The notes beneath the pieces are model-generated. The model was not told where the DNA came from. It worked only from the letters and a program-made list of their open reading frames with translations, and searched no databases. A stretch of 64,000 nucleotides of DNA, taken from NCBI RefSeq assembly GCF_900890425.1, contig NZ_CAAHFG010000004.1:490798-554797 (forward strand), written 5' to 3'. A program made the position numbers and the translations under genes. Positions within the stretch are counted from its first letter, which is position 1. Each line of letters starts with the position of its first letter. Source of the stretch: Pontiella desulfatans (GTDB lineage: Bacteria; Verrucomicrobiota; Kiritimatiellia; Kiritimatiellales; Pontiellaceae). This document shows positions 43,231-59,550 of this stretch, piece after piece.

Positions 43231-43308
43231 GGTGATTGTAGCTCAGTTGGTTAGAGCGCGTGATTGTGGTTCATGAGGCCGCGGGTTCGAATCCCGTCTT
43301 TCACCCCA
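43231..43308 (+). tRNA. tRNA-His (GTG)
   Basis: The D-arm AGCTCAGTTGGTTAGAGC, the anticodon arm CGTGA-TTGTGGT-TCATG (anticodon GTG) and the T-arm GCGGG-TTCGAAT-CCCGT are seen, with CCA encoded. An extra 5' G at 43231 suits tRNA-His. The acceptor pairing GTGATTG/CTTTCAC has two U-U mismatches. The 3' part is the island's attachment site. Confidence 0.88.
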
Positions 43309-43312
43309 ATTT
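43290..43312 (+). other. left attachment site (attL)
   Basis: This 23-bp sequence covers the T-arm 3' strand, the acceptor 3' strand and CCAATTT. It is identical to 59528-59550. Confidence 0.88.
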
Positions 43313-43318
43313 TTTTGT

Positions 43319-43366
43319 AAAGCCTTGAAACTGCGGTAAAACGCATGTTCTCAAGGCTTTATTTTT
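43319..43366 (+). terminator. hairpin after tRNA-His in island DNA
   Basis: AAAGCCTTGA (43319-43328) pairs with TCAAGGCTTT (43351-43360) and is followed by ATTTTTG. It probably ends the tRNA transcript in place of the host terminator now displaced to 59553. Confidence 0.7.
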
Positions 43367-43408
43367 GCCCTTGGTACAAATTCTGGTACAAAATCGGAGG
43401 TACTAAAG

Positions 43409-45217
43409 GTGGTCATAATGCAGAAAGTCCCGAATTTAACCAATCCTTCTGAAGGCAAGTACAAGTACAGGAAGGTTGTTCCCGATGACGTGCAGGCGTA
43501 CATCGGGCAAACGGAATGGAAGTTTACCCTTGATACGGATGATGAAAATCATGCGGTAGCTTGGGGAAAAGGACTCAATAAAAAATACGGTAAGGAAGTT
43601 CGTGAAGCACGGCAGGCTATCAGGAAAGAATCTTCAACTGGTGTGCCTGCTTCAAAGAAACCCACTTCCAAACCATTTGACCTGTCCAGTATTGAGTCAG
43701 AGATCCATCAATTGTCCGAAAATCTGGAATGTAAAAAGAACGCTGATCTAAACACTTTGCACCTCCAGCTTGGAAATATCGGGCATAGTATGCAATACGC
43801 TGTTGAGAAGGATTTAAGTGAACAGGCTTTGGCAGGAGTTGATTTGTGTCCTGTTTCTCAGCAAACGCTACTGGAGCTATGCACACATGTGGCACAGGTT
43901 GAAAACCTAGCCGATGGTGACCTGCGACGAAAAACCGCTCGTTTTGTTATTCACAAACTCCAGCCTCTGCTGGAAGAGATGGAGGACAGCATTCCCCCGC
44001 TGATGGGAAAACCTGTGCCAGTTCGGACAACACATAAATTGATTGATGGGCGTTGGGAGGATGTTCCGGTTGAAAAGCCTGCTGTTGCGACGACTCCATC
44101 AACTAATGCCCATGGTGAAAAAATACCTACACTTTCCGAGGCTCTTGAAAAGCACATAGCGTTCAAGGACGGGGATGTTAAAGATGGCACCGCCGAAACT
44201 AAAAGGGCTGGTGTTGCTCTGTTTATTGAGTGGGCGGGTGATAGACCTGTTTCCGATTATTCTCCCGATGAATTGGTTGATTACCGAAATAACTGCCTTA
44301 GGAAGTACCCGAAAAACCGCCAGCAGTCTCCAAAGTTTGACGGGAAGAGTTTGGCAGAAGCGCTAAAGATTGGTGCCAATGATAAACACATCGGGCAATC
44401 TAGAATTAACACCTTAATAAGCAACGTCAGCTCAGTTTTTAATTTTTCCGTACAGAGAAGGTGGATAACTCTCAACCCTGCATCTGGACTGAAAGAGACT
44501 AAGCCGAATGTATTGAGCGAAGAGGATGACAAAGCATTTGAACAGCATGAATTAGAAAAGTTGTTTGAGATCCTTCCATACAAAGAGAGTAAGCCGTCTT
44601 GGTATTGGTCTGTCATAATCTCCCTTTACAATGGTTGCCGACAATCAGAGATCTGTCAGCTATTCGTTGATGACATTATAACTTATCAGGAACTCCCTTG
44701 TTTCAAATTAACCGAGGAGGGGGAGGTCGGTGCAGATAAGAGCCTTAAAAATCGTCAATCGTGCCGAATCGTGCCTATTAATCCTAAGTTGATAGAAATA
44801 GGGTTTATGCGATTTGTGGAAAATCGGCGAAGGGAACTCAATGGCAAAAATGATTTGTTGTTTTCCAATGTTCGTCGCACGGCAAATGGAAAATATAACA
44901 AGAGTCTCAGTGACTGGTTTAACCAGCGATTCAAGCATAAGTTTATAGATAAAAAGATTCAGGCTGTTCGCAGGCGTACATTCCACGGGTTGAGGCATAG
45001 CTTCGCCCATTATTCACAAAATAATGCGAGGATGGACTTTCAGGTTCGCCATGAATTAATGGGACATGAACTCAAAGGCTATAACCCTGTGAATGCTGAT
45101 TATACGGGAAAACTACCAATGGCACGGTTGCTGGAGGATCTTGTGAAAATGGACTTTGGAGACTATGATTTAACAATCCCTGCCAATCCGTTCATGAAAA
45201 AAAAGGCGACCAAATGA
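43409..45217 (+). CDS. tyrosine integrase of the island
   Basis: This 602-residue site-specific recombinase has an N-terminal part beginning KVPNLTNPSEGKYKYRK that resembles arm-binding/DUF6538 regions of phage-like integrases. A SAM-like core-binding domain (about 270-370) and the catalytic domain follow. Catalytic residues are Arg near 411 in NGCRQSEICQL, HGLRHSF near 527, His in RHELMGHE near 550, and Tyr in NADYTGKL near 564. The GTG start at 43409 lies 8 bases after GGAGG; an ATG three codons on is the alternative. Its position next to tRNA-His and its inward direction make it the enzyme that integrated the island. Confidence 0.92.
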   Translation: MVIMQKVPNLTNPSEGKYKYRKVVPDDVQAYIGQTEWKFTLDTDDENHAVAWGKGLNKKYGKEVREARQAIRKESSTGVPASKKPTSKPFDLSSIESEIHQLSENLECKKNADLNTLHLQLGNIGHSMQYAVEKDLSEQALAGVDLCPVSQQTLLELCTHVAQVENLADGDLRRKTARFVIHKLQPLLEEMEDSIPPLMGKPVPVRTTHKLIDGRWEDVPVEKPAVATTPSTNAHGEKIPTLSEALEKHIAFKDGDVKDGTAETKRAGVALFIEWAGDRPVSDYSPDELVDYRNNCLRKYPKNRQQSPKFDGKSLAEALKIGANDKHIGQSRINTLISNVSSVFNFSVQRRWITLNPASGLKETKPNVLSEEDDKAFEQHELEKLFEILPYKESKPSWYWSVIISLYNGCRQSEICQLFVDDIITYQELPCFKLTEEGEVGADKSLKNRQSCRIVPINPKLIEIGFMRFVENRRRELNGKNDLLFSNVRRTANGKYNKSLSDWFNQRFKHKFIDKKIQAVRRRTFHGLRHSFAHYSQNNARMDFQVRHELMGHELKGYNPVNADYTGKLPMARLLEDLVKMDFGDYDLTIPANPFMKKKATK

Positions 45218-45233
45218 TCGCCTTCATGTGTCC

Positions 45234-45851
45234 TTAAATCAGATCCACCACTTTTCGCTGTGATTCGCTGTCGTGGTCAATGTACCGCTGTGTAGTTTGC
45301 AGGGTGCTGTGTCCTGCCAGATACTGGATGTCCCGTAGTGATCCGCCAACCGTGGATACCTTACGTGCGGTATTGGTGATAAAGGTTCTCCGCCCTGAAT
45401 GGGATGAGTAGCCAATAAGACCAAGGTCTTTATACAGGGTGTGGAAGAAATTCACGATGACCTGTGGGGTAGAGGACTTTGATCGTTCCGTTTGAATAAG
45501 GGATGTTTCATATAGGGCGGTCTTGTTACCCCTGATCCGTTTGGAATGAATTTCCAATAGTTCCTGAAGAAGCGGCTTTAGCGTTTTATGGATCGGGATC
45601 ACCCGTCCGCCATTCTTGCCCTTTGAAATATCGTTGGTCAGATGGATCGTGTCACCGACTTCAATTTCATCGGTCAGAATGTTCTTCCACTTCAGACCTG
45701 AGATTTCTTTCGCCCGTAAACCTGATTTGCAGGAAAGCAGAAACATTATCCGGTTCCGCAGTGAATTTCTACGATCCGCCAAGTATCCGAGGATCATGGA
45801 TTCCTGTTTCGGGGTGAGAGTCTTTGCTTGATTTGTCAGTCCAGTCGTCAT
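45234..45851 (-). CDS. second, short tyrosine recombinase
   Basis: This 205-residue protein consists mainly of a catalytic domain: SGLRAKEISGLKW (Arg I), GGRVIPIH (Lys/beta hairpin), SSHSGRRTF (HxxR) and AGHSTLQTTQRYID (His and Tyr). The core-binding domain is very short (LTPKQESMILGYLADRRNSL). It is convergent with the main integrase, 16 bp apart. The ATG at 45851 was chosen; a TTG two codons earlier is possible. Small XerD-like proteins of this size occur on mobile elements, where they may resolve dimers or act in excision. Confidence 0.88.
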   Translation of the reverse strand: MTTGLTNQAKTLTPKQESMILGYLADRRNSLRNRIMFLLSCKSGLRAKEISGLKWKNILTDEIEVGDTIHLTNDISKGKNGGRVIPIHKTLKPLLQELLEIHSKRIRGNKTALYETSLIQTERSKSSTPQVIVNFFHTLYKDLGLIGYSSHSGRRTFITNTARKVSTVGGSLRDIQYLAGHSTLQTTQRYIDHDSESQRKVVDLI

Positions 45852-46232
45852 AGTCAATCCCGTTATGAAAAGTTAGATATATAAGATAACATAATGAGTA
45901 TAGAATGCAAGGCAATTCAGGTAATATGCAACATGTTAAATACAAGTGGTTTGTGAGTACTCATTATAAAACACTGATTTTATAACGAGATGATTGTTCT
46001 CCTAGAATCAAGCCAGAGGGTTGGGATTGGTCTGATTTACTGCATATTACCGGGTTATTACGAAACCCCCATATAGAGGGGTTTGCCGATCAATTTATTT
46101 GGCGGTCATTTTTCCATTAGTCATGGTGTGGGTTGACGCAGTTCTGTGAAACTCACTTATTTCCCGCACTTTCTTATTTGAACCTAATATAATTAACCTG
46201 TTTTTTTTTAATATGGTCGATGAGTAAGGGTT
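45852..46232. other. AT-rich divergent intergenic region
   Basis: No coding frame is convincing over these 381 bases. It is very AT-rich, with TTTTATAACGAGATG and ATATAGAGGGG stretches. It should hold the promoters for the leftward recombinase and the rightward 1053-residue protein. I see no clear operator, although repeated TGAGTA and ATTACC words occur. Confidence 0.4.
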
Positions 46233-49200: not shown

Positions 49201-49394
49201 TAGGCGATTTGGTTTCATCTGTAGTTAAGAATGTTTTTAATGGTGGCTGTAGCCGTGATCAACTTTCTGAGTGGATGCGGGAGCATGGAGTTGTCAGAAA
49301 GAAACTCTCTTTATCCATGTTTCAGCCAAAAGATGGACTAATTATGAGTGAATATGAGTGTTATCTTGAATCAGGCGAGGTCGTAAATGGGTGA
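46233..49394 (+). CDS. large regulator-like protein with alpha-CTD-like HhH repeats and a sigma-region-4-like HTH
   Basis: This 1053-residue protein has at least two clear copies of an RNA-polymerase-alpha-CTD-like helix-hairpin-helix: residues 22-66 (SVLKLGVKAHRALHRLHIKS, LDGVGKKTV) and 278-333 (VRAKKALANLGVKTLGELL, LKNCGKNTVREL). Two more are degenerate, near 103-150 and 187-237. At 377-397 RTLESVAHDYGCTRERIRQV matches the sigma-70 region 4 helix-turn-helix. The C-terminal half holds two related segments with IHSERPSDGRSS..DGAVRSDEI and HISRQGRSAMSL..NGVVSVDDC, probably winged-helix-like. It starts at TTG 46233 (AAGGG adjacent) or ATG 46281. It overlaps the PLD gene by 8 bp. It is likely a DNA-binding component of a defence or regulatory system; this is inference from domains and context. 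Confidence 0.75.
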   Translation: MSDINKVVCIRDLRSSMDNKTPISVLKLGVKAHRALHRLHIKSIGEFIDLDMKDVLRLDGVGKKTVVCLGVWQKKVASILGSGVVDEAVSDADWKFYQECLSEVSQNRLTSLGICSLEKFFALSKYTFLGRQDVGAIYWEEVDYLQEVLSGGFEYSYDIGCEPNEEERSEKHGLEHEWRLAYASFSVRTKNGLDRLSVTSPKPFLKLTKDVFLGQRGVGKKCWKEIEGVQKKLFPLLSSGEVSLWEPDPYLLSDYPLYSGLDLNVTSLPDEFYPDAPVTSFVTNVRAKKALANLGVKTLGELLLVRSNVFFGLKNCGKNTVRELRKNVEEFLEYRRNPETNISMGESISDLIKQMCLEVGMSVRDADISSCRICHGRTLESVAHDYGCTRERIRQVVAKSTDLVETCFKTRIALDYVGEAMADVVNSNRGIIEMHALGTLLAEKLNWNTPVDEGGVKELIRNFPSMKARFAFEGDVVFRPHQCRDCDEITQLFKRLVRDSEDKPFTLNAEALEELQEICRKRTFFGCEFADLPFSSGYVDELCERSGYRKDGDTVWSDEAHALARGGLMRKAEALLQMYGGACSITELWSSIEALSDTTILKLRQVLSNSNQCFRWGKDEFIHKDFIKVRDDILSIIGNEINQRLKENSITSVIGIFKEYQFTFSDAGVPNEYALASVVANLFSDTCYVDKFRYIHSERPSDGRSSITYYVQQWVLDQDGAVRSDEIKNQLVNGFGMREATVPSCFSRLDEVIPLGEDKFIHVDNLGLNKSDLQSCADLIELTLQSHKQIGVHRLFKKKEIVCFELGIESPNMLHALIQHFFSDQYECRRFPHISRQGRSAMSLNETIERYLIERNGVVSVDDCSDHFESVGYNAAQMKARLPQTANVFVYYPRCLIHSSVLGWSENKSREIFKVLEASYEQSLRAGGFVGDLQDVFDLMEDDLPELENGYGWTADLLASIAGKIDGVQILGNAKRAFTIKGSKGELAKLGDLVSSVVKNVFNGGCSRDQLSEWMREHGVVRKKLSLSMFQPKDGLIMSEYECYLESGEVVNG

Positions 49395-50145
49395 TCTTCA
49401 ATCTCTCTCGCTGGAAGCTGTATATGACAGTTCAGAGTACCACTTAGTGCGGGACTTGATGGTTCCATTGTTGGCACAGTCCAAGTTGTATTGCCGTGGT
49501 GTCGGGTACTTTTCTAGCGGATGGTTAAGAATAGCTTCAGAAGGGCTTGAGGAGCTTATCTCCTCTGGAGGACGTGCCCGGTTAATTATGTCGCCCATTC
49601 TTGATGAAAAGGATTGGCAAGCAATTGAACTCGGGCAACAAGCTCGTGAAAATGAGATGCTCAAAAAGTGTCTTCACTCATCCGTGGATGAAATTTCTTC
49701 ATCGCTCGAATCTAACACCTTGAATACGTTTGCTTGGTTAATCGCTGATGAGCTGTTGGATGTTCGGTTCGCAGTCCCACGGGCGGGTTTTCGTGGTGGG
49801 GATTACCATGATAAAGTAGGATATTTTGCGGATGAGTCAGATAATTATGTAGCCATTCATGGGTCATATAATGACTCAATCAAGGGAACACTTAATGGAG
49901 AGGCGTTTTCTGTCTTTCGATCTTGGTATGAGGGGCAACTCCCGTTTTTGGACAAGCATGTTGCTCGGTTAAACCAGCTATGGGATGATGAAAACGCTCA
50001 GTTTCACACCTTTAAATTGCCCGATGCGGTAAGGCAACAAATAGTCCAGCTACGATCAACGGATTATAGACCGTACACTACATTATCTGGCGGAAAAATA
50101 ATGCGGATTCTGCTAAGGAATGGAGAAAGCTATATCACCGCATAG
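49387..50145 (+). CDS. PLD-like N-terminal domain of a helicase-type defence protein, truncated
   Basis: This 252-residue protein matches the phospholipase-D-like module usually found at the N-terminus of large PLD-SNF2/DEAD helicases. Landmarks are YDSSEYHLVRDLMVPLLAQS, GVGYFSSGWLRIASEGLEEL, and the HKD-like HDKVGYFADESDNYVAIHGS then GEAFSVFRSW. In complete proteins a helicase follows directly after the RPY segment. Here the frame after TDYRPYTTLS changes to a few unrelated residues and stops, and no helicase motifs follow. The gene has therefore probably lost about 600 codons. It is translationally coupled to the 1053-residue gene (GTAAATGGGTGA overlap), so the two were one functional unit. 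Confidence 0.75.
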   Translation: MGDLQSLSLEAVYDSSEYHLVRDLMVPLLAQSKLYCRGVGYFSSGWLRIASEGLEELISSGGRARLIMSPILDEKDWQAIELGQQARENEMLKKCLHSSVDEISSSLESNTLNTFAWLIADELLDVRFAVPRAGFRGGDYHDKVGYFADESDNYVAIHGSYNDSIKGTLNGEAFSVFRSWYEGQLPFLDKHVARLNQLWDDENAQFHTFKLPDAVRQQIVQLRSTDYRPYTTLSGGKIMRILLRNGESYITA

Positions 50146-50318
50146 GCTCCAATCAGAAACAACGTCTACTGGAAGTATTGTCTGAGGGGAAAATTAAAGA
50201 GCATCATTGTGCTTCTGAAACTGGCTTGCTCACTCCAATGCTGAAGTCGATTGAGTTGGCTTTGTTCTGTGTTTTGGAAAATGGCGAGGTACGAGCTACA
50301 TATCCAGAGGGTACATGA
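50088..50318 (+). pseudogene. remnant frame after the truncated PLD gene
   Basis: From 50088 a different frame reads WRKNNADSAKEWRKLYHRIG, then KQRLLEVLSEGKIKEHH, then a stop at 50316-50318. It has no start codon near its beginning and continues through the PLD gene's stop. It is protein-like in composition and helical, and probably belongs to the lost gene's 3' end or to a second gene fused by deletion. Confidence 0.5.
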
Positions 50319-50340
50319 ATGATTTTTTGTGGATGGCCGT

Positions 50341-50952
50341 ATGACCGACATAATCAATACGCTGAATCCGATTATCACCCCCGAATTGTTCGGGAGGATA
50401 CTTGAGGGCTACCCTCTAGATCCTCTGGGTATCCATGGGATTTACCACTGGCTGAAGGTTGCCGAGAATGCCCGTCATCTTGCCAAGGAGGAAGGAATCC
50501 AAAGCGATGTATTTCCCCTGTTTGCCGTATTCCATGATTCCCGCCGCCTCAATGATGGCCGTGATCCCGATCATGGGAAGCGTGGGGCCTCTTTCGCCAG
50601 AGAACTGCATGGAACGTGGTTCACTCTTCCCGAAGCTGATCTGGAGCGATTATGTTACGCCTGTGAGCACCATACTGACGTGGTACGTCACAAAGATCCA
50701 GTGATCGGGATCTGTTGGGATGCTGATAGAATGGATTTGCACAGAGTCGGGATCATGCCTGACGTAAAATACCTGAATAGCAAGACCGCTAAATCCGAAT
50801 ACTACGGTGCCAAATTTAAGTATGAACAACCCTGTCCCAGATGTGGACGGGATACAGAACTATTCTCAGGCATCTGCGCTGAATGCCGTGTGGAGATGGA
50901 AATCCAGTTATCGGAAACCAATATCGGATGGAAGACCGACATCTTTGATTAA
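50341..50952 (+). CDS. HD-domain protein with C-terminal zinc ribbon
   Basis: This 203-residue protein begins MTDIINTLNPIITPELFGR. The HD superfamily metal ligands appear in order: HGIYHWLKV, FHDSRRLNDG, CEHHTDVV and CWDADRMDLHR. It ends with a CPRCGR..CAEC zinc-ribbon-like pair near residues 175-192. HD proteins hydrolyse phosphate esters of nucleotides such as (p)ppGpp, dNTPs or cyclic nucleotides, or act on RNA. Here the LNDGRDPDHG insert after HDSRR resembles the uncharacterised HD proteins found in defence loci. A GTG at 50329 is an alternative start. It follows the broken PLD gene by 22 bp. Confidence 0.78.
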   Translation: MTDIINTLNPIITPELFGRILEGYPLDPLGIHGIYHWLKVAENARHLAKEEGIQSDVFPLFAVFHDSRRLNDGRDPDHGKRGASFARELHGTWFTLPEADLERLCYACEHHTDVVRHKDPVIGICWDADRMDLHRVGIMPDVKYLNSKTAKSEYYGAKFKYEQPCPRCGRDTELFSGICAECRVEMEIQLSETNIGWKTDIFD

Positions 50953-51344
50953 GGGTGGTTTCGGGCTGAAGTTTAGATCGGATTAACTGCCCGAAATGAA
51001 TCAAATTCCTTCTTTTTGACTTTGCTGAGACGGAATCTAAATTCATTTTCAAACTTTTTTAAGCCCCTTTTTCTAAAACCTGTCGAGGCTGAAAATGCAT
51101 TTTTTGTGACAGGGGCTAACTTGGTAAAAATCCATGAAGGGCAATAATGCCAAAAACATTAAGTTTTCTAGCAAAACCGCATATTTGAGGCTCCTCTTAT
51201 GCGTCCCTACTACAGAATTCTGAAATCTCAAAATGGTTTTTTCGCCTGAAAAATATCGGTTGCGCATCTGAAAATCTGTGGTCCCATAAGACCGTGGCAC
51301 TACCGCCCGCAACCAAAACTGAAAATTAACCAAGGAGACCGGAT
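50953..51344. other. intergenic, no gene seen
   Basis: The stretch is AT-rich and has many short A and T runs but no frame with protein character. It ends with the ribosome-binding site (CCAAGGAGACC) of the next gene. It may carry a promoter around 51240-51320 that I cannot define. Confidence 0.4.
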
Positions 51345-51854
51345 ATGAAAAAAGCTAAGAAACAGAACAACAAATACTGCTGGCACTACACTACTGGGGA
51401 GAAGTTTCAGGCTATCTCGGAATCCGGTGCAATTTATACTGAGGGAAAAACTACGCCGGTACAGATTCCGGGGCTGATCAATGCCGTATGGTTTTCCACG
51501 AATCAAAAATGGGAGCCTACGGCAACCAAAGCCGAGATGGATGGTGCCGGAGGAATGAAGCAATTTAGCTTTGGGAGGATGAGGCAACTTGGCGGCGGGC
51601 TGGTTCGGTTCGGCATTTCTGCTGATTCAAGTTTCTTGATGACATGGGACGAGTGGAAGCGGAAATGTAAATGTTCCGTAGGCATTATTGAAGGTATGGA
51701 GCAAACTGCTTTGTCGCAGGGATCAAATGTGAAGAATTTCAGGGCATGTCTTTCTGATGTCCCTCGTGAACTGTGGGAAGTTGTTGATGTGTGGGAAAAT
51801 GGCAAGTGGGTGCGAGTATTCACTAGGGATGAGGAAGCTTCAGCCGCCGCTTAA
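51345..51854 (+). CDS. unrecognised 169-residue protein, possible ADP-ribosyltransferase-like
   Basis: The start MKKAKKQNNKYCWHYTTGEK has AAGGAG upstream. The segment YCWHYTTGEKFQAISESGAI followed by NAVWFSTNQKWEPTA resembles the two active-site strands (HYT/S and WFST) of small ADP-ribosyltransferase-like or RES-type toxins and effectors. I cannot identify a catalytic Glu with confidence. The rest is mixed alpha/beta with a basic KRKCKCS patch. It stands alone, followed by a hairpin at 51881. Its role could be a toxin or defence effector; this is a weak inference. Confidence 0.6.
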   Translation: MKKAKKQNNKYCWHYTTGEKFQAISESGAIYTEGKTTPVQIPGLINAVWFSTNQKWEPTATKAEMDGAGGMKQFSFGRMRQLGGGLVRFGISADSSFLMTWDEWKRKCKCSVGIIEGMEQTALSQGSNVKNFRACLSDVPRELWEVVDVWENGKWVRVFTRDEEASAAA

Positions 51855-52297
51855 TCTTTGGGTTTCCTTGTTAGAATACTTCCCCGCCAGAGGCGGGGAT
51901 GTCCTTTTCAGAAACTGTCATTTTGCCGAACATAAAAAATAATTTTTGAAATTTTTGCATTTTTGAATGACCGGATATCTGGGGGGCAGATTCCAAAACT
52001 GCCATTTTGGGTTCCTGAAAATCTCGGTATGAAAAAAATATAAAATTTTGATTTTTGGATGGTGAAAAGGTGATTTGCACATTTTCAAAATTCTATGCCC
52101 TGACGCTAAAAGGTCAGAATCCATGTGTCATATATTTTTTTCACGGTCGCCTTATTGAATCTGAATCGAGTCATTTTTTCAGCCACCGCCGGAACTTCCA
52201 AATCTGAAATTGAACCTCTTTTCTGAATGTAAACCTCCAGCCGTCCGGGGAGAACACTACACCTCTGTTCTTTGACATATTATTTAACCGGTTCATC
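51855..52297. other. intergenic, AT-rich, one hairpin, no gene seen
   Basis: Apart from the hairpin at 51881-51899 there is no protein-like frame. Long T and A runs (TGCATTTTTGAATG, GAAAAAAATATAAAATTTTG) dominate the middle. Confidence 0.4.
51881..51899. terminator. hairpin after the 169-residue gene
   Basis: TCCCCGCC pairs with GGCGGGGA around AGA, 27 bases beyond the stop. The following TGTCCTTTTC gives only a weak T-run, so termination is likely but not strong. Confidence 0.55.
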
Positions 52298-52684
52298 TCA
52301 TGCTCCCAGAATATTGGCGGCTACTTCATCCCAGTTGATGCCGGTTGCTTTTGGAAACTGAATAATCCGACCTTCATTGGCTTCTTCCGGGTTATATTCC
52401 TCCAGCCTTTCCACTTCAATCCACGGCGTATGGTTAAGGCTTTTTTCCCATGCCCATTCCAAAGCACGTCTGGCTTTTGCCTCCTTTGATGCCGGGACTA
52501 TCAATTCATCAAAAACCTGAACTGAAGGTACATCGCACTTCTGAAGGATCTCCATTGCTTTGAATAGAATGGATGCTTCAATCTCCACGGCATTACGGCA
52601 GGCAGACTGATAAAACTGATGTTTGATCTTTGGGTTCAGGGCTTCAACTTTGTTGAATACATCCCGGTAACCACTTTGTGTTTG
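52298..52684 (-). pseudogene. 3' fragment of a phage-type replication gene
   Basis: The open frame between a stop at 52685 and the end at 52298 encodes SGYRDVFNKVEALNPK, ACRNAVEIEASILFKAMEIL and PSVQVFDELIVPAS. The last resembles the HDEL(I)V motif C region of family A phage DNA polymerases with Phe in place of His; this assignment is tentative. Only a GTG at 52588 could start a 96-residue product. The 5' part is missing, cut by the junction with the rightward secreted-protein gene that overlaps it. Confidence 0.5.
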
Positions 52685-53350
52685 CTATCAGCTTGGGCTG
52701 AAGCTCAGGACTACACCAATATGGCATCCTCATTTGCTGTAGGTGGAATATCTACCAATGGCGAGTATTCAAATGTATCCTCATGGCAACAGCCGGTAGA
52801 TCCTACTCAGTCCACAGGTGGTGATTATGTCAATCAGTCTGGATTCTTGGCAGGATTCATTGAACAGGATGGATCTGATATCGATGGTGATGGTCTTGTA
52901 GATACACTTGATCCAGATAACGACAATGACGGGATTCTAGATCTGGCTGAAATTTCAGGATCTACATTCAATCCTCCAGTTCCTACAGATCCGAACAAGG
53001 ATGATAGTGATGGGGATGGCAGTAGTGACATGGCGGAATTTCTATTTGGGTATGACCCGACCAATCCAGATTCCCGTTTCCAGATATCGCCTGATGTAGG
53101 TGCGAGTAATGGGGCGTATCAATTGACGTTCCAAACTCTGAAAGATCGTATGTACGTTCCTCTGTACTGCGACGACCTCGCAACTGCTAATTGGGTCGCT
53201 TTTACCAATGTTGGCAACAGTGTATGGATAGAAAGTCGTGGTGGAACAAACTCCCATACAGTTGTTGATGATTTCACAGTGAATACATCAGGGACGACAC
53301 CAACGAATAGCGTTCGATTTTACAGAGTATCTGTACAGAAGATCTACTAG
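52619..53350 (+). CDS. secreted TSP3-repeat protein with foreign N-terminus
   Basis: This 243-residue protein contains QDYTNMASSFAVGGIS, then calcium-binding acidic repeats (DIDGDGLVDTLDPDNDNDGI, DDSDGDGSSDMAEF) typical of thrombospondin type 3 units. A C-terminal part ends SVRFYRVSVQKIY, which resembles the tails of the chromosomal secreted cluster. The first 20 or so codons (MFDLWVQGFNFVEYIPV) are antisense to the phage-like fragment, while TTLCLLSAWAEAQ looks like the second half of a signal peptide. The gene's original start was therefore probably cut off and replaced at the junction near 52680. It leads a two-gene unit with the next gene, 9 bp apart. Confidence 0.72.
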   Translation: MFDLWVQGFNFVEYIPVTTLCLLSAWAEAQDYTNMASSFAVGGISTNGEYSNVSSWQQPVDPTQSTGGDYVNQSGFLAGFIEQDGSDIDGDGLVDTLDPDNDNDGILDLAEISGSTFNPPVPTDPNKDDSDGDGSSDMAEFLFGYDPTNPDSRFQISPDVGASNGAYQLTFQTLKDRMYVPLYCDDLATANWVAFTNVGNSVWIESRGGTNSHTVVDDFTVNTSGTTPTNSVRFYRVSVQKIY

Positions 53351-53359
53351 GGAGATATT

Positions 53360-54211
53360 ATGAAGAAATATATAGTTCTAATTTCGCTTTTGGTATTACT
53401 CCCTCTTTTATGCACTGCTGGTACAGAGCGATTGAACTATCAGGGCAAATTGGCTCATGGTAACTCTCCTGTTACGGGAACTATTCCTATGATCTTCCAA
53501 ATCTTCGATGGACAGTCTGGAACAAACGTCCTCTATGAAGAATCCATGAGTGTTGATGTCGTGGATGGATATTATTCAATTGAGCTTGGTGAATATCCGA
53601 ATTTTGGGCAATTGGTCAGTGCCATTAAGCGTCAAGATGCTCATATTCAAGTGACTGTTAATGGGAAGAAATTGAAGCCTAGAGAGAAGGTTGGGAAACC
53701 GCCTTTTGCTGAGAAAAGCAAAGAAACTATTCATGATTTCTATATGAACAACAATGTGTTTCCCAAGTCGTACTGGGATAATCAAATAGCGAATACCAAC
53801 TTCTTCGGCGGCTATTTTTACTCGGTGCATAATTATTCCCTGTATTTCTATAATTGTGAATCGCAACAACATTTTATGTTTGTATCTCCATCGGTGATGG
53901 AGAGGAAAACCGTCTCTCAGATAGGTATTTGGGCGAGAAATATAACAACTAATGTGCCAACAGATGTAGTCATCCAAGCTTATGCAAGAGGCTTTGATGA
54001 TGATCAAATAGAAAGAGTGTTGTCGGATCAAGTTAGATTAGATCAGATGATTCCGCTCGAATGGTTCTATTTGCCAGTTATCTCTCCAGAGAATAAGGCA
54101 TACATTAATTCAGATGAATACATCCATATAGAGCTTTCATTGCCAGAAGGACAAACTCAAACGAACAGATTTGATCTGACATGTATTCGTGCAAGCGTAG
54201 AATTGAAATAG
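53360..54211 (+). CDS. secreted protein with 'LNYQGKL' domain, copy 1
   Basis: This 283-residue protein has a signal peptide (MKKYIVLISLLVLLPLLCTAG), then ERLNYQGKLAHGNSPVTGTI and a beta-rich domain (FQIFDGQSGTNVLYEE, VDGYYSIELGEYPN) of a type common in secreted proteins of Kiritimatiellota-like and other bacteria. Residues 1-105 are close to identical to copy 2, including KKLKPREKVGKPPFAE; the C-terminal half is different. No function is known. It may bind other surface structures, with the variable half as the specific part. Confidence 0.72.
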   Translation: MKKYIVLISLLVLLPLLCTAGTERLNYQGKLAHGNSPVTGTIPMIFQIFDGQSGTNVLYEESMSVDVVDGYYSIELGEYPNFGQLVSAIKRQDAHIQVTVNGKKLKPREKVGKPPFAEKSKETIHDFYMNNNVFPKSYWDNQIANTNFFGGYFYSVHNYSLYFYNCESQQHFMFVSPSVMERKTVSQIGIWARNITTNVPTDVVIQAYARGFDDDQIERVLSDQVRLDQMIPLEWFYLPVISPENKAYINSDEYIHIELSLPEGQTQTNRFDLTCIRASVELK

Positions 54212-54232
54212 TACCAAGCATTAAAAATACAT

Positions 54233-54322
54233 ATGAACGAAATTTTCGATCCAACACAAATATCTGGTGTGTCACCAACTAACGGTGTTCGTTTTTATAG
54301 AGTGTCTGTCGAAATCAATTAA
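54233..54322 (+). pseudogene. 3' remnant of a second TSP3-type gene
   Basis: A 29-residue frame ends SGVSPTNGVRFYRVSVEIN, matching the end of the TSP3 protein (SGTTPTNSVRFYRVSVQKIY). It lies just before copy 2 of the LNYQGKL gene, in the same place relative to it as the full gene is to copy 1. It is thus the leftover of a tandem duplication of the two-gene unit. Confidence 0.75.
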
Positions 54323-54332
54323 GGAGTTCGAA

Positions 54333-55205
54333 ATGCAAAAACTACTTTTACTGGCGACTTTGGTCTTCCCTTTATTGTCCTACTCAGGAACTGAGCGGCT
54401 TAACTACCAAGGCAAACTTGCCCATGGGAATAACCCCGTAACGGGCAATGTCCCGATGACCTTCCAAATCTTCGATGGACAGAATGGTACCAATGTCCTT
54501 TATGAAGAATCCATGGATGTTGATGTCGTGGATGGTTACTACTCCATTGAACTTGGTGAGTATCCAAACCTTGGGCAGTTGGTAAGTGCCATAAAAAGAC
54601 AGGATGCCCACATACAAGTGACTGTTAATGGGAAAAAAATGAAGCCTAGAGAAAAAGTCGGTAAGCCACCTTTTGCAGAACACAGCGAGGAAACATGGAC
54701 AGAATTTAGTTTAGAGCAGTCGGTTGATGGAGATCCTATATTTGAGCAATGGATATCGTATCAAACGAATCCATTTATTGATACTGCGGACACTCACATG
54801 AAGTACTTGGGCGGATATCGACCAAGTGAGGGATCTGCAATGTCTTTTTATTTCAACCCAGTCACCGTTTCGAAAAAAGTTAGAGAGGTTAGAGTTTTAG
54901 CGTTAAAAAATAATACTGGGTATTACAATGACGTGAATCCTATTCTTCAAAATACAAAGCTAGAAGTAGTGGTGAGATCCCTAACGACAAACGAAAAGAC
55001 TCGATCTCTTTCAGAGCCTACTGATGTAAGCGAAATTATTTCAGGTGAATGGTTCAGCGTCCCGCTTACTAACAGCATAAAGGATTCTGTCGTAAATGCA
55101 GGAGAGTACCTCTGCATAGATGCATATTCCCCATACGTTGATAATGGAGTGTTTGAAAAAGGGTCTCATCTACAGGGAATCTTTATAAATGTCATTGTGT
55201 ATTGA
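54333..55205 (+). CDS. secreted protein with 'LNYQGKL' domain, copy 2
   Basis: This 290-residue protein has a signal peptide (MQKLLLLATLVFPLLSYSG) after AGGAG. The first part (ERLNYQGKLAHGNNPVTGNV, VDGYYSIELGEYPNLGQLVS) is nearly the same as copy 1. The rest (DTHMKYLGGYRPSEGSAMSF and on) shares little sequence with it, although both end with a similar beta pattern. The frame opens earlier at 54267, but those codons belong to the remnant. Confidence 0.72.
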   Translation: MQKLLLLATLVFPLLSYSGTERLNYQGKLAHGNNPVTGNVPMTFQIFDGQNGTNVLYEESMDVDVVDGYYSIELGEYPNLGQLVSAIKRQDAHIQVTVNGKKMKPREKVGKPPFAEHSEETWTEFSLEQSVDGDPIFEQWISYQTNPFIDTADTHMKYLGGYRPSEGSAMSFYFNPVTVSKKVREVRVLALKNNTGYYNDVNPILQNTKLEVVVRSLTTNEKTRSLSEPTDVSEIISGEWFSVPLTNSIKDSVVNAGEYLCIDAYSPYVDNGVFEKGSHLQGIFINVIVY

Positions 55206-55580
55206 TGAAGTTGACAGGTGAAGGCAAGGTCAGGTGTGTAAACTTGATCTACAAAAATGGGCTTCACTAGAATGGTAATCAATATCTAACTACAAGGGTG
55301 GTAGTCCCAATGCTGGCTGATCCAAAAACATTTGATTATGGATCACCCGAAAAGGGCTACTTCTGTAACGGTTATGGGGTGATCTGGGATGAGGGTTTTT
55401 GGATCACCTGAATCGGGTAGGGTTTTTGAATCAGTCAAACAATTCTTTAATCCTAAACCTAAGACAATGGCGTCGGCTTGCTGAGATATAGGCTAAATAT
55501 CTTGATAGCCTTGTTGGGCTAATAGTTTCCTGTAATATGGATCTGGTATAGCCTTATTAAGATATGGGAATGGAGTTACT
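55206..55580. other. intergenic, two related short repeats
   Basis: GGATCACCCGAAAAGGGCTA and GGATCACCTGAATCGGGTAG lie about 60 bp apart and resemble each other. No coding frame is seen. The segment should hold the promoter of the HEPN gene. Confidence 0.45.
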
Positions 55581-57401
55581 ATGAGATTCAGGAACCTGAG
55601 AAAATGGGAAAATCCCAACCAATGTGAAGGATTGCTTTTTTTTGCTCAACGAATGGAGGAACTTCTATTCGACTATTCTTTGGATAGTTACAAACCCCCA
55701 GCCTTGAATTCTCTCTTTCTGTGTAAAGAAGCTCTTAGTCTCATTGAAGATATTGAGAACAGGATAATTGATCCTGAGAACCTTGTTCCTGTTCTAGAGG
55801 AACTCGATTGGAGTCTAAAGAACGACAGAGTCGCTAAATCGTTATTAGATGCAGAGCCTGAAAAATATATATTGCTGGATGAAGCGACTCAGCTAAAGGA
55901 TAAGAAGATTCGGCTCGAAGTTCTTGCTAGAACATTGGGTGTGCAAAGGTACGTGGATCGATGCTCTGAGCTTCTTGCGTTAGCTATTCAGGAAAAGAGC
56001 AAAATAGAAATATCTAAGCTGTCAACGCTGTTGACGACAACACTCCTTAACTGCGGTCTCAGCAAGCAGTATCTTTATACAAAAACACTCGATTACTTCT
56101 ATATTGGATCAACACCCAAGATAACTGGAAATGACAATATCAAAGAGTTCCTGGAGTCAATTTATCCAATCGGGCACGAATTTGAGGTATATTTCACCTG
56201 TTCAAGGTTGATCGCTGAAGTTAGAGATTCAATATCAGCATTTAACGTCATCATACTGGACGAACTTCCAGAGGACTTGCACGAGATATCTGATCAACAG
56301 GGGTTTAAGAAATCTGATGACGAAGTGTATGTCGAAGTAAGCGAAATTCAGTGTGCTGATGTGTTTACAGCCAGAGAGCTAGCAGAAAGACGATTAGACC
56401 AACTGCGAGATCTATTTACCCTCTTTAATCACAAAAATCAGATCTCATGGAATGAGAAAGCACTTATAAAGCAATGTTGCGTAGAAGGTCCCAAATGTGT
56501 TCTCCCGCCCAAGAGTGCTATGGAGAAAGGATTTGATATGAAGCCAGAAATGGCTTCGAGGGAATTGAATCGCTTGATTAAACAAGTATCTCTGTCAGAC
56601 AGCTCTTTAGAAAAATTCAATAGGGTTGTTGATTTCCACGGCATCGGGGTTACGAATGATGTGCCAGAAAACCAACTGCTTAATATTTGGATAGCTATTG
56701 AGACCTTGTTGCCTACTCACTCGGGAGGATCGAAGATCAATGTAATTAACGATCTCATGCGACCATTCCTGTCGGTAAATTACATTAGTAGATTGGTTGA
56801 GCGATTTGCGGCGGATCTCTTGTTATGGAATAAGTTTAAGACCCGATTCGTCTTGAGGAAAATACCAGACTCAAAAGGTATGACCGTTTACCAAAAGGTA
56901 CTTCGATTGCTCGCTCTAAATGAAAATGACGCTGTGTTGCAAGAGTTGTACGGGTCACTTCGAGATTTTCATTTGCTTAGGTTCAGAGCGTTCCAGTTGT
57001 CGGAAATGCTAAGAGATTTGGAAAAAATTCGTGCGCATATCGAACAACATCGAAAAAAGATTGCTTGGCAGGTTCGGCGAATTTACAGAACGAGAAATCT
57101 CATTGTTCACTCTGGGAAGAAGCCTAAGTACATCCTTTCTCTCATAGAAAATGGTCATGACTACCTTGATCAAACCCTCTTTGAGGTCATAAAAATGTCT
57201 ACGGGTAGTTATTGTGTGGAGACATTTGATCAGGCTTTTGAACTAGCACGGTTAAAGTATTCGATTTACTGGAAAAACCTAAACTCTATTGAATCATTCT
57301 CCTCCGACAACATTGATTTTCTTTTGCGAGAGTCTTGGGGTTTGGAGAGGTTGAGTAATAGTCGGTCAGCTGATAAAGCAACTGACGAGACTCAATGTTA
57401 A
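55581..57401 (+). CDS. HEPN-domain (Apea-like) protein
   Basis: This 606-residue protein starts MRFRNLRKWENPNQCEG. The N-terminal two-thirds is helical and matches no family I know. Its C-terminal part (about 460-560) is a HEPN domain: RNLIVH near residue 505 supplies the R-x4-H RNase motif within RRIYRTRNLIVHSG, preceded by an all-helical segment (RAFQLSEMLRDLEKIRAHIE). The earlier stretch NQLLNIWIAIETLLPTHSGG also fits the Apea_HEPN family. Apea-type HEPN proteins are found in defence islands and are thought to cleave RNA after phage sensing. It is flanked by promoter-like AT-rich DNA and a convergent resolvase, so it may act alone. Confidence 0.75.
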   Translation: MRFRNLRKWENPNQCEGLLFFAQRMEELLFDYSLDSYKPPALNSLFLCKEALSLIEDIENRIIDPENLVPVLEELDWSLKNDRVAKSLLDAEPEKYILLDEATQLKDKKIRLEVLARTLGVQRYVDRCSELLALAIQEKSKIEISKLSTLLTTTLLNCGLSKQYLYTKTLDYFYIGSTPKITGNDNIKEFLESIYPIGHEFEVYFTCSRLIAEVRDSISAFNVIILDELPEDLHEISDQQGFKKSDDEVYVEVSEIQCADVFTARELAERRLDQLRDLFTLFNHKNQISWNEKALIKQCCVEGPKCVLPPKSAMEKGFDMKPEMASRELNRLIKQVSLSDSSLEKFNRVVDFHGIGVTNDVPENQLLNIWIAIETLLPTHSGGSKINVINDLMRPFLSVNYISRLVERFAADLLLWNKFKTRFVLRKIPDSKGMTVYQKVLRLLALNENDAVLQELYGSLRDFHLLRFRAFQLSEMLRDLEKIRAHIEQHRKKIAWQVRRIYRTRNLIVHSGKKPKYILSLIENGHDYLDQTLFEVIKMSTGSYCVETFDQAFELARLKYSIYWKNLNSIESFSSDNIDFLLRESWGLERLSNSRSADKATDETQC

Positions 57402-57416
57402 GTGGGTCATTTGGCG

Positions 57417-58031
57417 TCATCCTGCCATCTGAATTTGAGGAATATCCTTCAAAGTCCGATAGACAGTCCCGTAAGACACCCCAAGCTGTTTGGCAATCCG
57501 TCTAACCCCAAGACCTTCTTCACGAAGCTTGAGAGCCTTGGAGACATCGAATCCCACACGAGGTCGTCCCAGAGTCTTACCTTCCTTGCGGGCACGATCA
57601 AGACCGCTCATTACACGCTCCCGAATGACTGATTTCTCCAATTCAGCAAATGCAGAGATGATCTGGAACATGCATTTACCCATCGGGGAACTGGTATCGA
57701 TATTTTCGCTGTAGCTGATGAAGTCGATTCCGAGGTGATCGAATTCTTCCAAGCCTTCGATGAGCATCTTTGTGCTTCGTGCAAACCTGTCGAAGCGATA
57801 CACAATCACCGCTGAAAAATGACGTTTCTTGGCATCTGCCAAAAGGGCGAGATATTCAGGTCTCTTGTCTGATGATCCGGACATCTGATCAACGTATTCC
57901 TTATGGATCTCAAAGCCTCTTTGGGAACAATACTGACGCAATAGGGATAGCTGGGTTTCTACATTCTGTTTGCCGTCAGAAGTGGATGTGCGGGCGTAAA
58001 TGGCGATCTTCTGGACATGATTTGTAGTCAT
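57417..58031 (-). CDS. serine recombinase (resolvase/invertase family)
   Basis: This 204-residue protein has the catalytic N-terminal domain KIAIYARTSTSDGKQNVETQ with the nucleophile Ser in ARTST, then the conserved VYRFDRFARS and MGKCMFQIISAFAELE-KS helix E. A C-terminal Hin-type helix-turn-helix contains GVRRIAKQLGVSYGTVYRTL. The start MTTNHVQK is about 10 bases after AAGGAG; a longer frame reaches 58151 without support. It is divergent from a 54-residue gene, 112 bp apart, an arrangement usual for plasmid or transposon resolvases with a small accessory protein. Confidence 0.9.
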   Translation of the reverse strand: MTTNHVQKIAIYARTSTSDGKQNVETQLSLLRQYCSQRGFEIHKEYVDQMSGSSDKRPEYLALLADAKKRHFSAVIVYRFDRFARSTKMLIEGLEEFDHLGIDFISYSENIDTSSPMGKCMFQIISAFAELEKSVIRERVMSGLDRARKEGKTLGRPRVGFDVSKALKLREEGLGVRRIAKQLGVSYGTVYRTLKDIPQIQMAG

Positions 58032-58143
58032 TGGGATAGATGCTCCTTGGTCTATTTGGGCTTGTCGTCTCATGTGAATATATGTATATACAATATATAG
58101 GCGAAATGCAAGCTTTATTGTATATACAAATAATTGAGATGAT

Positions 58144-58308
58144 ATGGACAAACCTAAAAAACGGGGCAGACCGTCTCTGACTGATCCTGAACGTAAGCGA
58201 ATAATGCTTCCCGTTCGGTTTACTGAAGCAGAGAAAGCGAAGATTCAGCAGGATGCAAAAGATAGTGGGCTAAGTCTGACCGAATATGTGCGGCGAAAAC
58301 TACTCTGA
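58144..58308 (+). CDS. small ribbon-helix-helix protein, MobC/CopG-like
   Basis: This 54-residue protein (MDKPKKRGRPSLTDPERKRI) has an AT-hook-like KRGRPS start. It continues MLPVRFTEAEKAKIQQDA and SLTEYVRRKLL, the plan of plasmid-mobilisation MobC-type and CopG-type RHH proteins. It is divergent from the serine recombinase. It may repress its own and the recombinase's transcription or bind an origin of transfer. No relaxase gene is in the island. Confidence 0.7.
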   Translation: MDKPKKRGRPSLTDPERKRIMLPVRFTEAEKAKIQQDAKDSGLSLTEYVRRKLL

Positions 58309-58428
58309 CTCTATTGGGCGTGATCTATTGCCTATCTGACCTCTGTTCACAACATTACTTCAGCTTAGGCAGGAAACCCCCTTGATAATTGGTACGTCTC
58401 GTGGTACAAAAACCGCTAAATTCAAATA

Positions 58429-59438
58429 GGGGTATTCACTTCGCTGGACTAAGTCTGTATCTTGTGGTTTCTTCCCCTGACCGACAGGGATATTTCCTTG
58501 AACCGAACGGGTTCCATAGCGACTGCATTTTGTAGCAGACGGTAAAACAGCATTCCCCGCGAGCGGGAAGTGCGCCGGTTGAAGCGGAACGTGTATTCGT
58601 CGAGATAGTATGCCAAATGCTCGTGACTTACTGCGCCCTGATGTGTTCCGCCAAGCCACCGCTTAAGCAAACTGGCGACTCGATGGCAAAGGGGGAGCAG
58701 GTTCGCGCCAACATCCTCGGATTTCCGAACGACTTTATGGTCGTAGCCCAAAGCTCCCAAACCATTGTACCCCTTCCACCCGTCCGTCTTCACCTGCGTA
58801 CCCGGATCAACTGTTTCTCGGATGGCCCCTTCAAGACTTTTGGATGAGGCATCGGGTATTTTTACAAGGCGAATGCGACCGACGGCCTTACCATTCTCCT
58901 GCGCCACGATCAGCACAAGGGTCTTGCCTTCGGCTCCGCGCCCCCGTTTCCCGGGCCTTGTGCCGCCTATGAAGGTTTCATCCACCTGCACGGTTCCGGT
59001 CAGTCTTTCCCGTCCCGGACGTACCATCGCCCGGCGGAGCTTGTGCAGCCACGTCCATGCGGTCTTGTAGCTTCCGAGGCCGAGAACGCGCATCAGTCCC
59101 AGGGCGCTGGCTCCGTTCTTCTGGCTTGTCACCCACCAGATCGCCCTGAACCAGGACGCCAGCGGTTTGCGGGTGCCCTCAAAGATCGTACCCGAGGTTA
59201 CAGATGTTTTACGACTGCACTTCTTGCACTTGAAAAGGCCGTCTGCCAGTCGCCACGACTCCCCATGGCCACAGGCCGGGCAAAGGAAGCCGTTCGGCCA
59301 TCGCAATGATGCAAGATAGTCGCGACATGCTTCTTCACTTGAAAAGTTCAGTTCCAATTCTTCCAGATCCTTTGGATACGCTTCCATGAAACGTGTGTAC
59401 CACAACATGTGGGTCTAGTCCAGCGAAGTGAATACCCC
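58429..59438. mobile_element. IS1595-family insertion sequence
   Basis: The ends are exact inverted repeats of 23 bases beginning GGGGTATTCACTTCGCTGG. A 12-bp direct repeat TAAATTCAAATA flanks both sides (58417-58428 and 59439-59450), so the copy is recent and probably intact. It carries one transposase. It lies about 80 bp from the right attachment site. Confidence 0.9.
58449..59408 (-). CDS. IS1595-family transposase (ISXO2-like)
   Basis: This 319-residue transposase has an N-terminal zinc-binding part (CPACGHGESWR, FKCKKCSRKTS) and then the ISXO2 DDE-type domain: VQVDETFIGGTRPGKRGRG, KTDGWKGYNGL and the C-terminal RFNRRTSRSRGMLFYRLL. A start at 59387 (MEAYPKDLEE) is the alternative; no ribosome-binding site favours either, and the stop lies inside the left terminal repeat. 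The family length is typical, so the element may still be active. Confidence 0.9.
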   Translation of the reverse strand: MLWYTRFMEAYPKDLEELELNFSSEEACRDYLASLRWPNGFLCPACGHGESWRLADGLFKCKKCSRKTSVTSGTIFEGTRKPLASWFRAIWWVTSQKNGASALGLMRVLGLGSYKTAWTWLHKLRRAMVRPGRERLTGTVQVDETFIGGTRPGKRGRGAEGKTLVLIVAQENGKAVGRIRLVKIPDASSKSLEGAIRETVDPGTQVKTDGWKGYNGLGALGYDHKVVRKSEDVGANLLPLCHRVASLLKRWLGGTHQGAVSHEHLAYYLDEYTFRFNRRTSRSRGMLFYRLLQNAVAMEPVRFKEISLSVRGRNHKIQT

Positions 59439-59527
59439 TAAATTCAAATATGTACCGAGGTTTTAGAAATAGCAAAAACCCCTTTAAAAATGGCTATTTC
59501 TGGCAGAATCAATGCGGTGGAAACTGA

Positions 59528-59550
59528 AATCCCGTCTTTCACCCCAATTT
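59528..59550 (+). other. right attachment site (attR)
   Basis: This exact copy of the left 23-bp sequence ends CACCCCAATTT. It is followed at 59553 by what is probably the original terminator of the tRNA-His gene. Confidence 0.88.

Follow-up and report, generated by a model that had tools for sequence, protein, structure and literature searches.

Which function is encoded by the gene at positions 55581 to 57401 of the DNA analysed here, a stretch of 64,000 nucleotides from Pontiella desulfatans (called the window in the following)? A sequence-only reading had described its product as a stand-alone protein of 606 residues with a C-terminal HEPN domain and the RNase motif RNLIVH, preceded by a long, unrecognised helical N-terminus, and had proposed a single-gene RNA-cleaving defence protein with a sensor region of its own. 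The open reading frame was confirmed exactly, from the ATG at 55581 through 57401. A frame of 606 codons greatly exceeds chance expectation: when the nucleotides of the island were shuffled 300 times (mononucleotide shuffles), the longest stop-free run had 219 codons. The motif was also found where it had been described, in the C-terminal part of the protein. The local features are:

55572..55575, forward strand: GGAG, putative ribosome-binding site, read from the sequence a few bases before the ATG
55581..57401, forward strand: ApeA-family gene, 606 aa, assigned by its open reading frame and its homology to ApeA proteins
57093..57110, forward strand: RNLIVH, residues 505-510, with the putative catalytic residues Arg505 and His510 (sequence and alignment)

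A promoter scan gave results that were no better than those obtained with shuffled sequences.

The family of the protein was determined by sequence comparison with the chains of the PDB. Using phmmer, Ec2ApeA was matched with an E value of 1.4e-90 over residues 1-581 and Ec3ApeA with an E value of 3.5e-81 over residues 1-569, while Ec4ApeA and Ec1ApeA were matched weakly and in the HEPN part only. Residues 1-298 on their own matched Ec2ApeA (E 1.2e-44) and Ec3ApeA (E 4e-34), so that homology extends to the sensor part. When the search was made with a profile built from 47 relatives, Ec1ApeA was reached with an E value of 1.3e-38 over profile positions 19-552 and Ec4ApeA with an E value of 1.4e-38 over positions 15-582; Thr1ApeA was matched at an E value of 0.012 only. 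Because of the full-length homology to Ec2ApeA and Ec3ApeA and the profile that extends to Ec1ApeA and Ec4ApeA, the protein is, judged by its sequence, almost certainly a member of the ApeA family. Pfam and PHROGs yielded no match for the 606-residue protein, and no Pfam model named after ApeA was found for the 47 aligned relatives. Thus, the N-terminus is indeed unrecognised as far as Pfam is concerned, but not when the solved structures of Ec2ApeA and Ec3ApeA are considered. The PADLOC ApeA model matched with an E value of 2.5e-6 and covered residues 362-526. Since Pfam misses the family and the PADLOC match is weak and partial, genome surveys probably underestimate how often ApeA occurs.

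The structure was predicted with AlphaFold2 using 47 sequences (mean pLDDT 92, pTM 0.89), and the model revealed three domains:

55614..56159, forward strand: N-terminal helical domain, residues 12-193, putative sensor part 1 (AlphaFold2 secondary structure)
56169..56504, forward strand: central alpha/beta domain, residues about 197-308, putative sensor part 2 (model; ferredoxin-like arrangement)
56544..57203, forward strand: HEPN-like domain, residues about 322-541 (model; likeness to AbiA and Csm6; PADLOC ApeA model within it)

The helical N-terminus, which had been estimated at about 450 residues, therefore had to be revised: about 320 residues precede the HEPN-like domain, and they are helical at residues 12-193, but not throughout. 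In the model, residues 322 to about 541 are all helical, and one long helix (480-511) bears the RNLIVH motif. When the model was compared with the PDB using VIA-align, AbiA occupied the first row (Z 8.3, 117 residues, model residues 331-544), and with the C-terminal domain alone two Csm6 structures were matched, one at rank 7 and the other at rank 1 (Z 5.8, 110 residues), values that helical bundles can reach by chance according to the aligner's own warning. For the central domain (197-308) ferredoxin-like domains yielded Z values of 4.3-5.7 only. Foldseek against the PDB gave no match for either the whole model or the model of the C-terminal domain at E values up to 0.001, and the 9hx entries of ApeA were not among the structure-comparison matches listed. 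AbiA and Csm6 both carry HEPN RNase domains. The C-terminal domain thus likely adopts a HEPN fold, as far as can be judged from a predicted model, and the structure prediction that the sequence-only reading had suggested as a check pointed, modestly, in the expected direction.

The conservation of single residues was analysed in an alignment of 55 full-length proteins. Arg505 and His510 were identical in 55 of 55 proteins, but for Arg505 this is partly built in, because the genome and viral scans were seeded with two conserved stretches, the motif's Arg being the last residue of one of them, and the scan patterns select for conservation inside these stretches. With Arg505 as the exception, the fixed residues His510, Glu374, Arg469, His490 and Glu27, all of them identical in all 55 proteins, are either located outside the scan patterns or left free by them. 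Asn506 was retained in 53 of the 55 proteins, and two residues of the sensor part, Asp82 and Glu50, in 54 each. Most of the invariant columns fall in residues 370-528, and across the family the HEPN part is far better conserved than the N-terminal part. In the Ec2ApeA construct 9hxe the residue aligned with Arg505 had been changed from Arg to Ala, which is consistent with a catalytic role of Arg505, a role proposed here from the alignment. The C-terminal HEPN-like domains of two copies would pair, and the RNA-cutting site would be composed of Arg505 and His510 of each chain.

HEPN RNases with such a motif are common toxins, according to PMC3710099, and the gene might be the toxin of a toxin-antitoxin pair of the HEPN-MNT or RnlA-like type, whose partner is encoded elsewhere or has been lost. 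The stretch that holds the gene has a GC content of 40-43%. The upstream gene ends 375 bp before it and showed a weak NCBIfam match to an adhesive-fibre domain and no match to any Pfam model, while a convergent serine resolvase gene follows 15 bp downstream. When both neighbours were scanned with Pfam and NCBIfam, no antitoxin-like gene was found, in agreement with the earlier statement that no antitoxin is adjacent. Likewise, no partner family recurred among 185 genes that neighbour relatives of the gene (PADLOC families; the top counts were 4 of 91 and 4 of 94). The full-length homology to ApeA also speaks against a toxin, and a toxin-antitoxin pair is thus extremely improbable. HEPN-MNT in particular was rejected, based on this homology and on the absence of an adjacent nucleotidyltransferase from both neighbouring genes scanned. 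As separate observations, positions 53360-55205 encode two tandem paralogous, secreted-looking proteins with a common N-terminal part, the second of which is the one with the weak match to the adhesive-fibre domain, and positions 55314-55437, upstream of the ApeA-family gene, contain direct and inverted copies of GTTTTTGGATCA. This sequence has three matches in the window, all of them at this place, compared with 0.42 expected.

On a larger scale, an integrated element of 16.2 kb, which extends from 43290 to 59550, carries the gene as cargo. The features that define the element are:

43232..43308, forward strand: tRNA-His (gtg), integration target
43290..43312, forward strand: attL, left end repeat, in the 3' end of the tRNA-His gene
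43409..45217, forward strand: tyrosine recombinase, 602 aa, beside tRNA-His, likely the integrase of the element
45234..45857, reverse strand: second tyrosine recombinase, catalytic part only
59528..59550, forward strand: attR, right end repeat, exact copy of 23 bp

The assignment is based on the tRNA-His site, the exact end repeats, the low GC content and the adjoining tyrosine recombinase. The 23-bp repeat begins 19 bp upstream of the 3' end of tRNA-His, and an exact repeat of this length would occur by chance with a probability of about 5e-7 (simple estimate). The 16,238 bp between the end repeats have a GC content of 43.6%, compared with 59% on both flanks. An Rfam search found the tRNA alone. 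A hairpin and a T-run come after each of the two end repeats, as if the element had supplied tRNA-His with a new terminator and displaced the old one to the element's far end; relatives also show a hairpin and a T-run after tRNA-His. An empty integration site was not found in relatives. For the gene on the right flank, close relatives occur in five further genomes of the genus (59-79% identity), and in one of these, which consists of one contig (G383), the relative is located far from tRNA-His. An IS1595-type transposase gene (58449-59408) lies just inside the right end and has a GC content of 56%, unlike the rest of the element.

A second complete defence system that could be named was not found on the element, and the element's own neighbourhood is therefore weak evidence for the function of the gene. 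Positions 46233-50145 encode a protein of 1053 aa with parts that resemble the RNA polymerase alpha-CTD and sigma region 4, and its gene overlaps by 8 bp with a gene for a phospholipase D-like protein of 252 aa (49387-50145), whose match to the PbeA profiles is confined to the first third of these profiles and which looks truncated. The two genes are possibly a second, unnamed defence pair.

The distribution of relatives was determined by scanning genomes and viral contigs with an alignment-based query. In 84,980 species genomes 56 loci were found to encode a relative, and a further 15 loci were present in viral contigs; the relatives are spread over many phyla. The same genome and viral contigs yielded nothing when scanned with the single sequence, because the chosen patterns are not conserved; the alignment query succeeded. 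The nearest relatives (43-49% identity) belong to Pseudomonadota and one Verrucomicrobiales genome. Within the phylum of the host, 3 of 387 genomes, including the host itself, matched at E values up to 1e-10, and the host genome contains one copy of the gene. In a search of plasmid proteins 71 of 72,556 records were matched, and among the matches listed these covered the HEPN part only, with 23-24% identity. A search of phage proteins found no relative, and a DNA search of E. coli genomes gave chance matches in tdcB only. In a quick tree the window gene groups with Pseudomonadota genes (support 97 for the set of 13 rows), and a homologue from another genome of the host's phylum (L003, genome G290) and one from a Lentisphaeria bacterium (L055) have an identical stretch of 190 residues in common, which makes it probable that the host belongs to the Verrucomicrobiota as delimited by GTDB. 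The window gene was probably acquired horizontally. The possibility that the homologues are housekeeping genes, which would have contradicted a defence function, was rejected on account of the three matching genomes of the phylum; the occurrence is sporadic, on mobile elements and in viral contigs.

Not all relatives have complete genes. At 5 of 71 relative loci (L026, L033, L042, L044 and L074) the frame covers just 65-77% of the match and appears to be interrupted, through decay or an assembly error. Together with the sister gene at 49387-50145, which looks truncated compared with the PbeA profile, they would be expected if the window gene were likewise a decayed or catalytically dead copy that rides on the element. 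The window copy, however, has an intact frame and carries all the invariant residues of the family, which makes a dead copy very unlikely.

The sequence-only reading had also suggested that homologues should be counted in defence islands. To this end, the 185 genes neighbouring relatives were scanned with PADLOC in two sets (91 and 94 genes). At E values up to 1e-10, the matches listed, which were the best 25 of 155 and the best 25 of 302 families, included Zorya ZorD, DpdE, TIR effectors, PDC-M11A, type I restriction-modification, DISARM DrmA and DrmD, and BREX helicases. As a control, 72 neighbours of 18 relatives (18 of 56 loci) were compared with 72 distant genes on the same contigs at E values up to 1e-20. 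The neighbours matched 28 PADLOC models and the control genes 8, which is a rough contrast rather than a statistical test, since one gene can be described by several models. The best 25 of the 28 neighbour models included HerA, DUF4297, PDC-M11A, PDC-M11B, ATPase-Toprim, CapP, TIR and mad3, while the control genes matched RtcR-type regulators, DEDDh exonuclease, mad3, PDC-S13 and PDC-S48. The model mad3 was present in both sets and is thus not specific. Relatives therefore adjoin defence genes more than the controls from the same contigs do. One distant relative, encoded in another genome of the host's phylum (L002:352-3225), directly follows a type I specificity (HsdS) gene, with a few bases between them.

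Taken together, the homology to ApeA, the motif, which is retained in 55 of 55 proteins, the likeness of the fold and the neighbours of relatives favour the proposal that the gene encodes a defence protein which acts alone, cleaves RNA and has a sensor of its own. By analogy with its relatives, the protein very probably acts in RNase-based phage defence. The complete reading, namely a single-gene abortive-infection ribonuclease of the ApeA family that is carried by the 16.2-kb element, has infection-sensing N-terminal domains and is most likely triggered by deoxydinucleotides, is proposed with good confidence. According to this model, the N-terminal helical and alpha/beta domains would hold the RNase off and would sense infection. 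The most likely trigger would be deoxydinucleotides, which would be released when the phage breaks down DNA, presumably that of the host, and would then be sensed by ApeA. The activated enzyme would cut cellular RNA, and the infected cell would stop before phages are released; the protein thus probably stalls or kills the infected cell.

The trigger deserves separate consideration. Sensing of deoxydinucleotides is regarded as most likely because of the homology to Ec2ApeA over the full length, and that they activate ApeA is stated in the title of a preprint (Juozapaitis 2026, reference 19 in PMC13405049). Furthermore, nucleases specific for deoxydinucleotides occur in genomic islands near defence genes, according to PMC11706625, which fits a role of deoxydinucleotides in immunity. 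For the window protein itself, activation by deoxydinucleotides is therefore slightly favoured, again by analogy. Alternatively, it could be an ApeA-type HEPN RNase that responds to a phage protein, a DNA end or another nucleotide. The much lower conservation of the N-terminal part compared with the HEPN part, with its invariant columns mostly at 370-528, and the identity to Ec2ApeA of only about 35% would be in line with such a different trigger, as would the fact that the known activation is taken from a title. However, homology to Ec2ApeA includes the N-terminal part, and three residues of this part are almost fixed (Glu27 in 55, Asp82 in 54 and Glu50 in 54 of 55 proteins), which suggests a common ligand or fold. 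A different trigger thus seems unlikely, and deoxydinucleotides remain the preferred one.

Several known systems can be compared with the window protein. The HEPN domains of Csm6 and AbiA were the best rows in the fold comparison, and their HEPN active site is of the same kind; however, their sensor parts differ, and the PDB searches detected no sequence similarity to them. The fusions of ApeA-NTD1 and HEPN described by Anantharaman et al. 2013 (PMC3710099) bear the same ApeA HEPN name and are also large and stand-alone, but according to that study their N-terminal domain comprises about 300 aa and is mostly composed of beta strands, whereas that of the window protein is mostly helical in the model. 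An assignment to these fusions was therefore rejected, as the model is helical at residues 12-193 and contains one alpha/beta domain.

The closest known systems are those for which ApeA structures have been deposited. Ec2ApeA from E. coli strain 2-156-04_S4_C1 (PDB 9hxb, 9hxd, 9hxe-9hxi) has the same sensor region and one HEPN motif (RTRNLIVH); the identity is about 35% in the A1 alignment. Ec3ApeA (PDB 9hxj) is about 31% identical. Ec1ApeA (9hxn) and Ec4ApeA (9hxm), which were matched by the profile over nearly their whole length, represent distant branches, because the search with the single sequence reached their HEPN part only. One difference concerns a pair of charges:

57240..57251, forward strand: Glu554 and Arg557, charge-reversed compared with Arg551/Glu554 of Ec2ApeA (alignment; putative role in assembly)

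In the construct 9hxd of Ec2ApeA, Arg551 had been changed to Glu, and this entry contains 2 chains compared with 10 in 9hxb and 9hxi, while 9hxj contains 12, although such counts may also reflect the deposited assembly. If the chain counts are read in this way, Arg551 would be an oligomer contact of Ec2ApeA. Ec3ApeA also has an Arg at the column of Glu554, whereas nearly all members of the branch of the window protein have an acidic residue there. In 36 rows both columns are charged, and in 32 of them the charges are opposite (19 plus/minus, 13 minus/plus), compared with 3 plus/plus and 1 minus/minus. On the tree, no more than 3 changes of the charge at 554 are needed, and an independent-pairs test gave p ~1 and is without power; a proven compensation is therefore not claimed. 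It is a tentative and rather doubtful idea that a branch of ApeA has reversed the charges at the contact that holds the oligomer together. If this were true, the branch would assemble via a mirror-image salt bridge and could coexist with Ec2-type ApeA without mixing, so that one cell could operate several ApeA sensors in parallel. No new kind of system is revealed by the window protein; the ApeA family was already known, and the gene is a good but ordinary further example. It shows that a full-length ApeA is carried by an integrated element in a bacterium whose phylum includes Lentisphaeria, and the 55 aligned full-length proteins, with their fixed residues and the charge pair reversed relative to Ec2ApeA, point to specific mutants for sensing and assembly.
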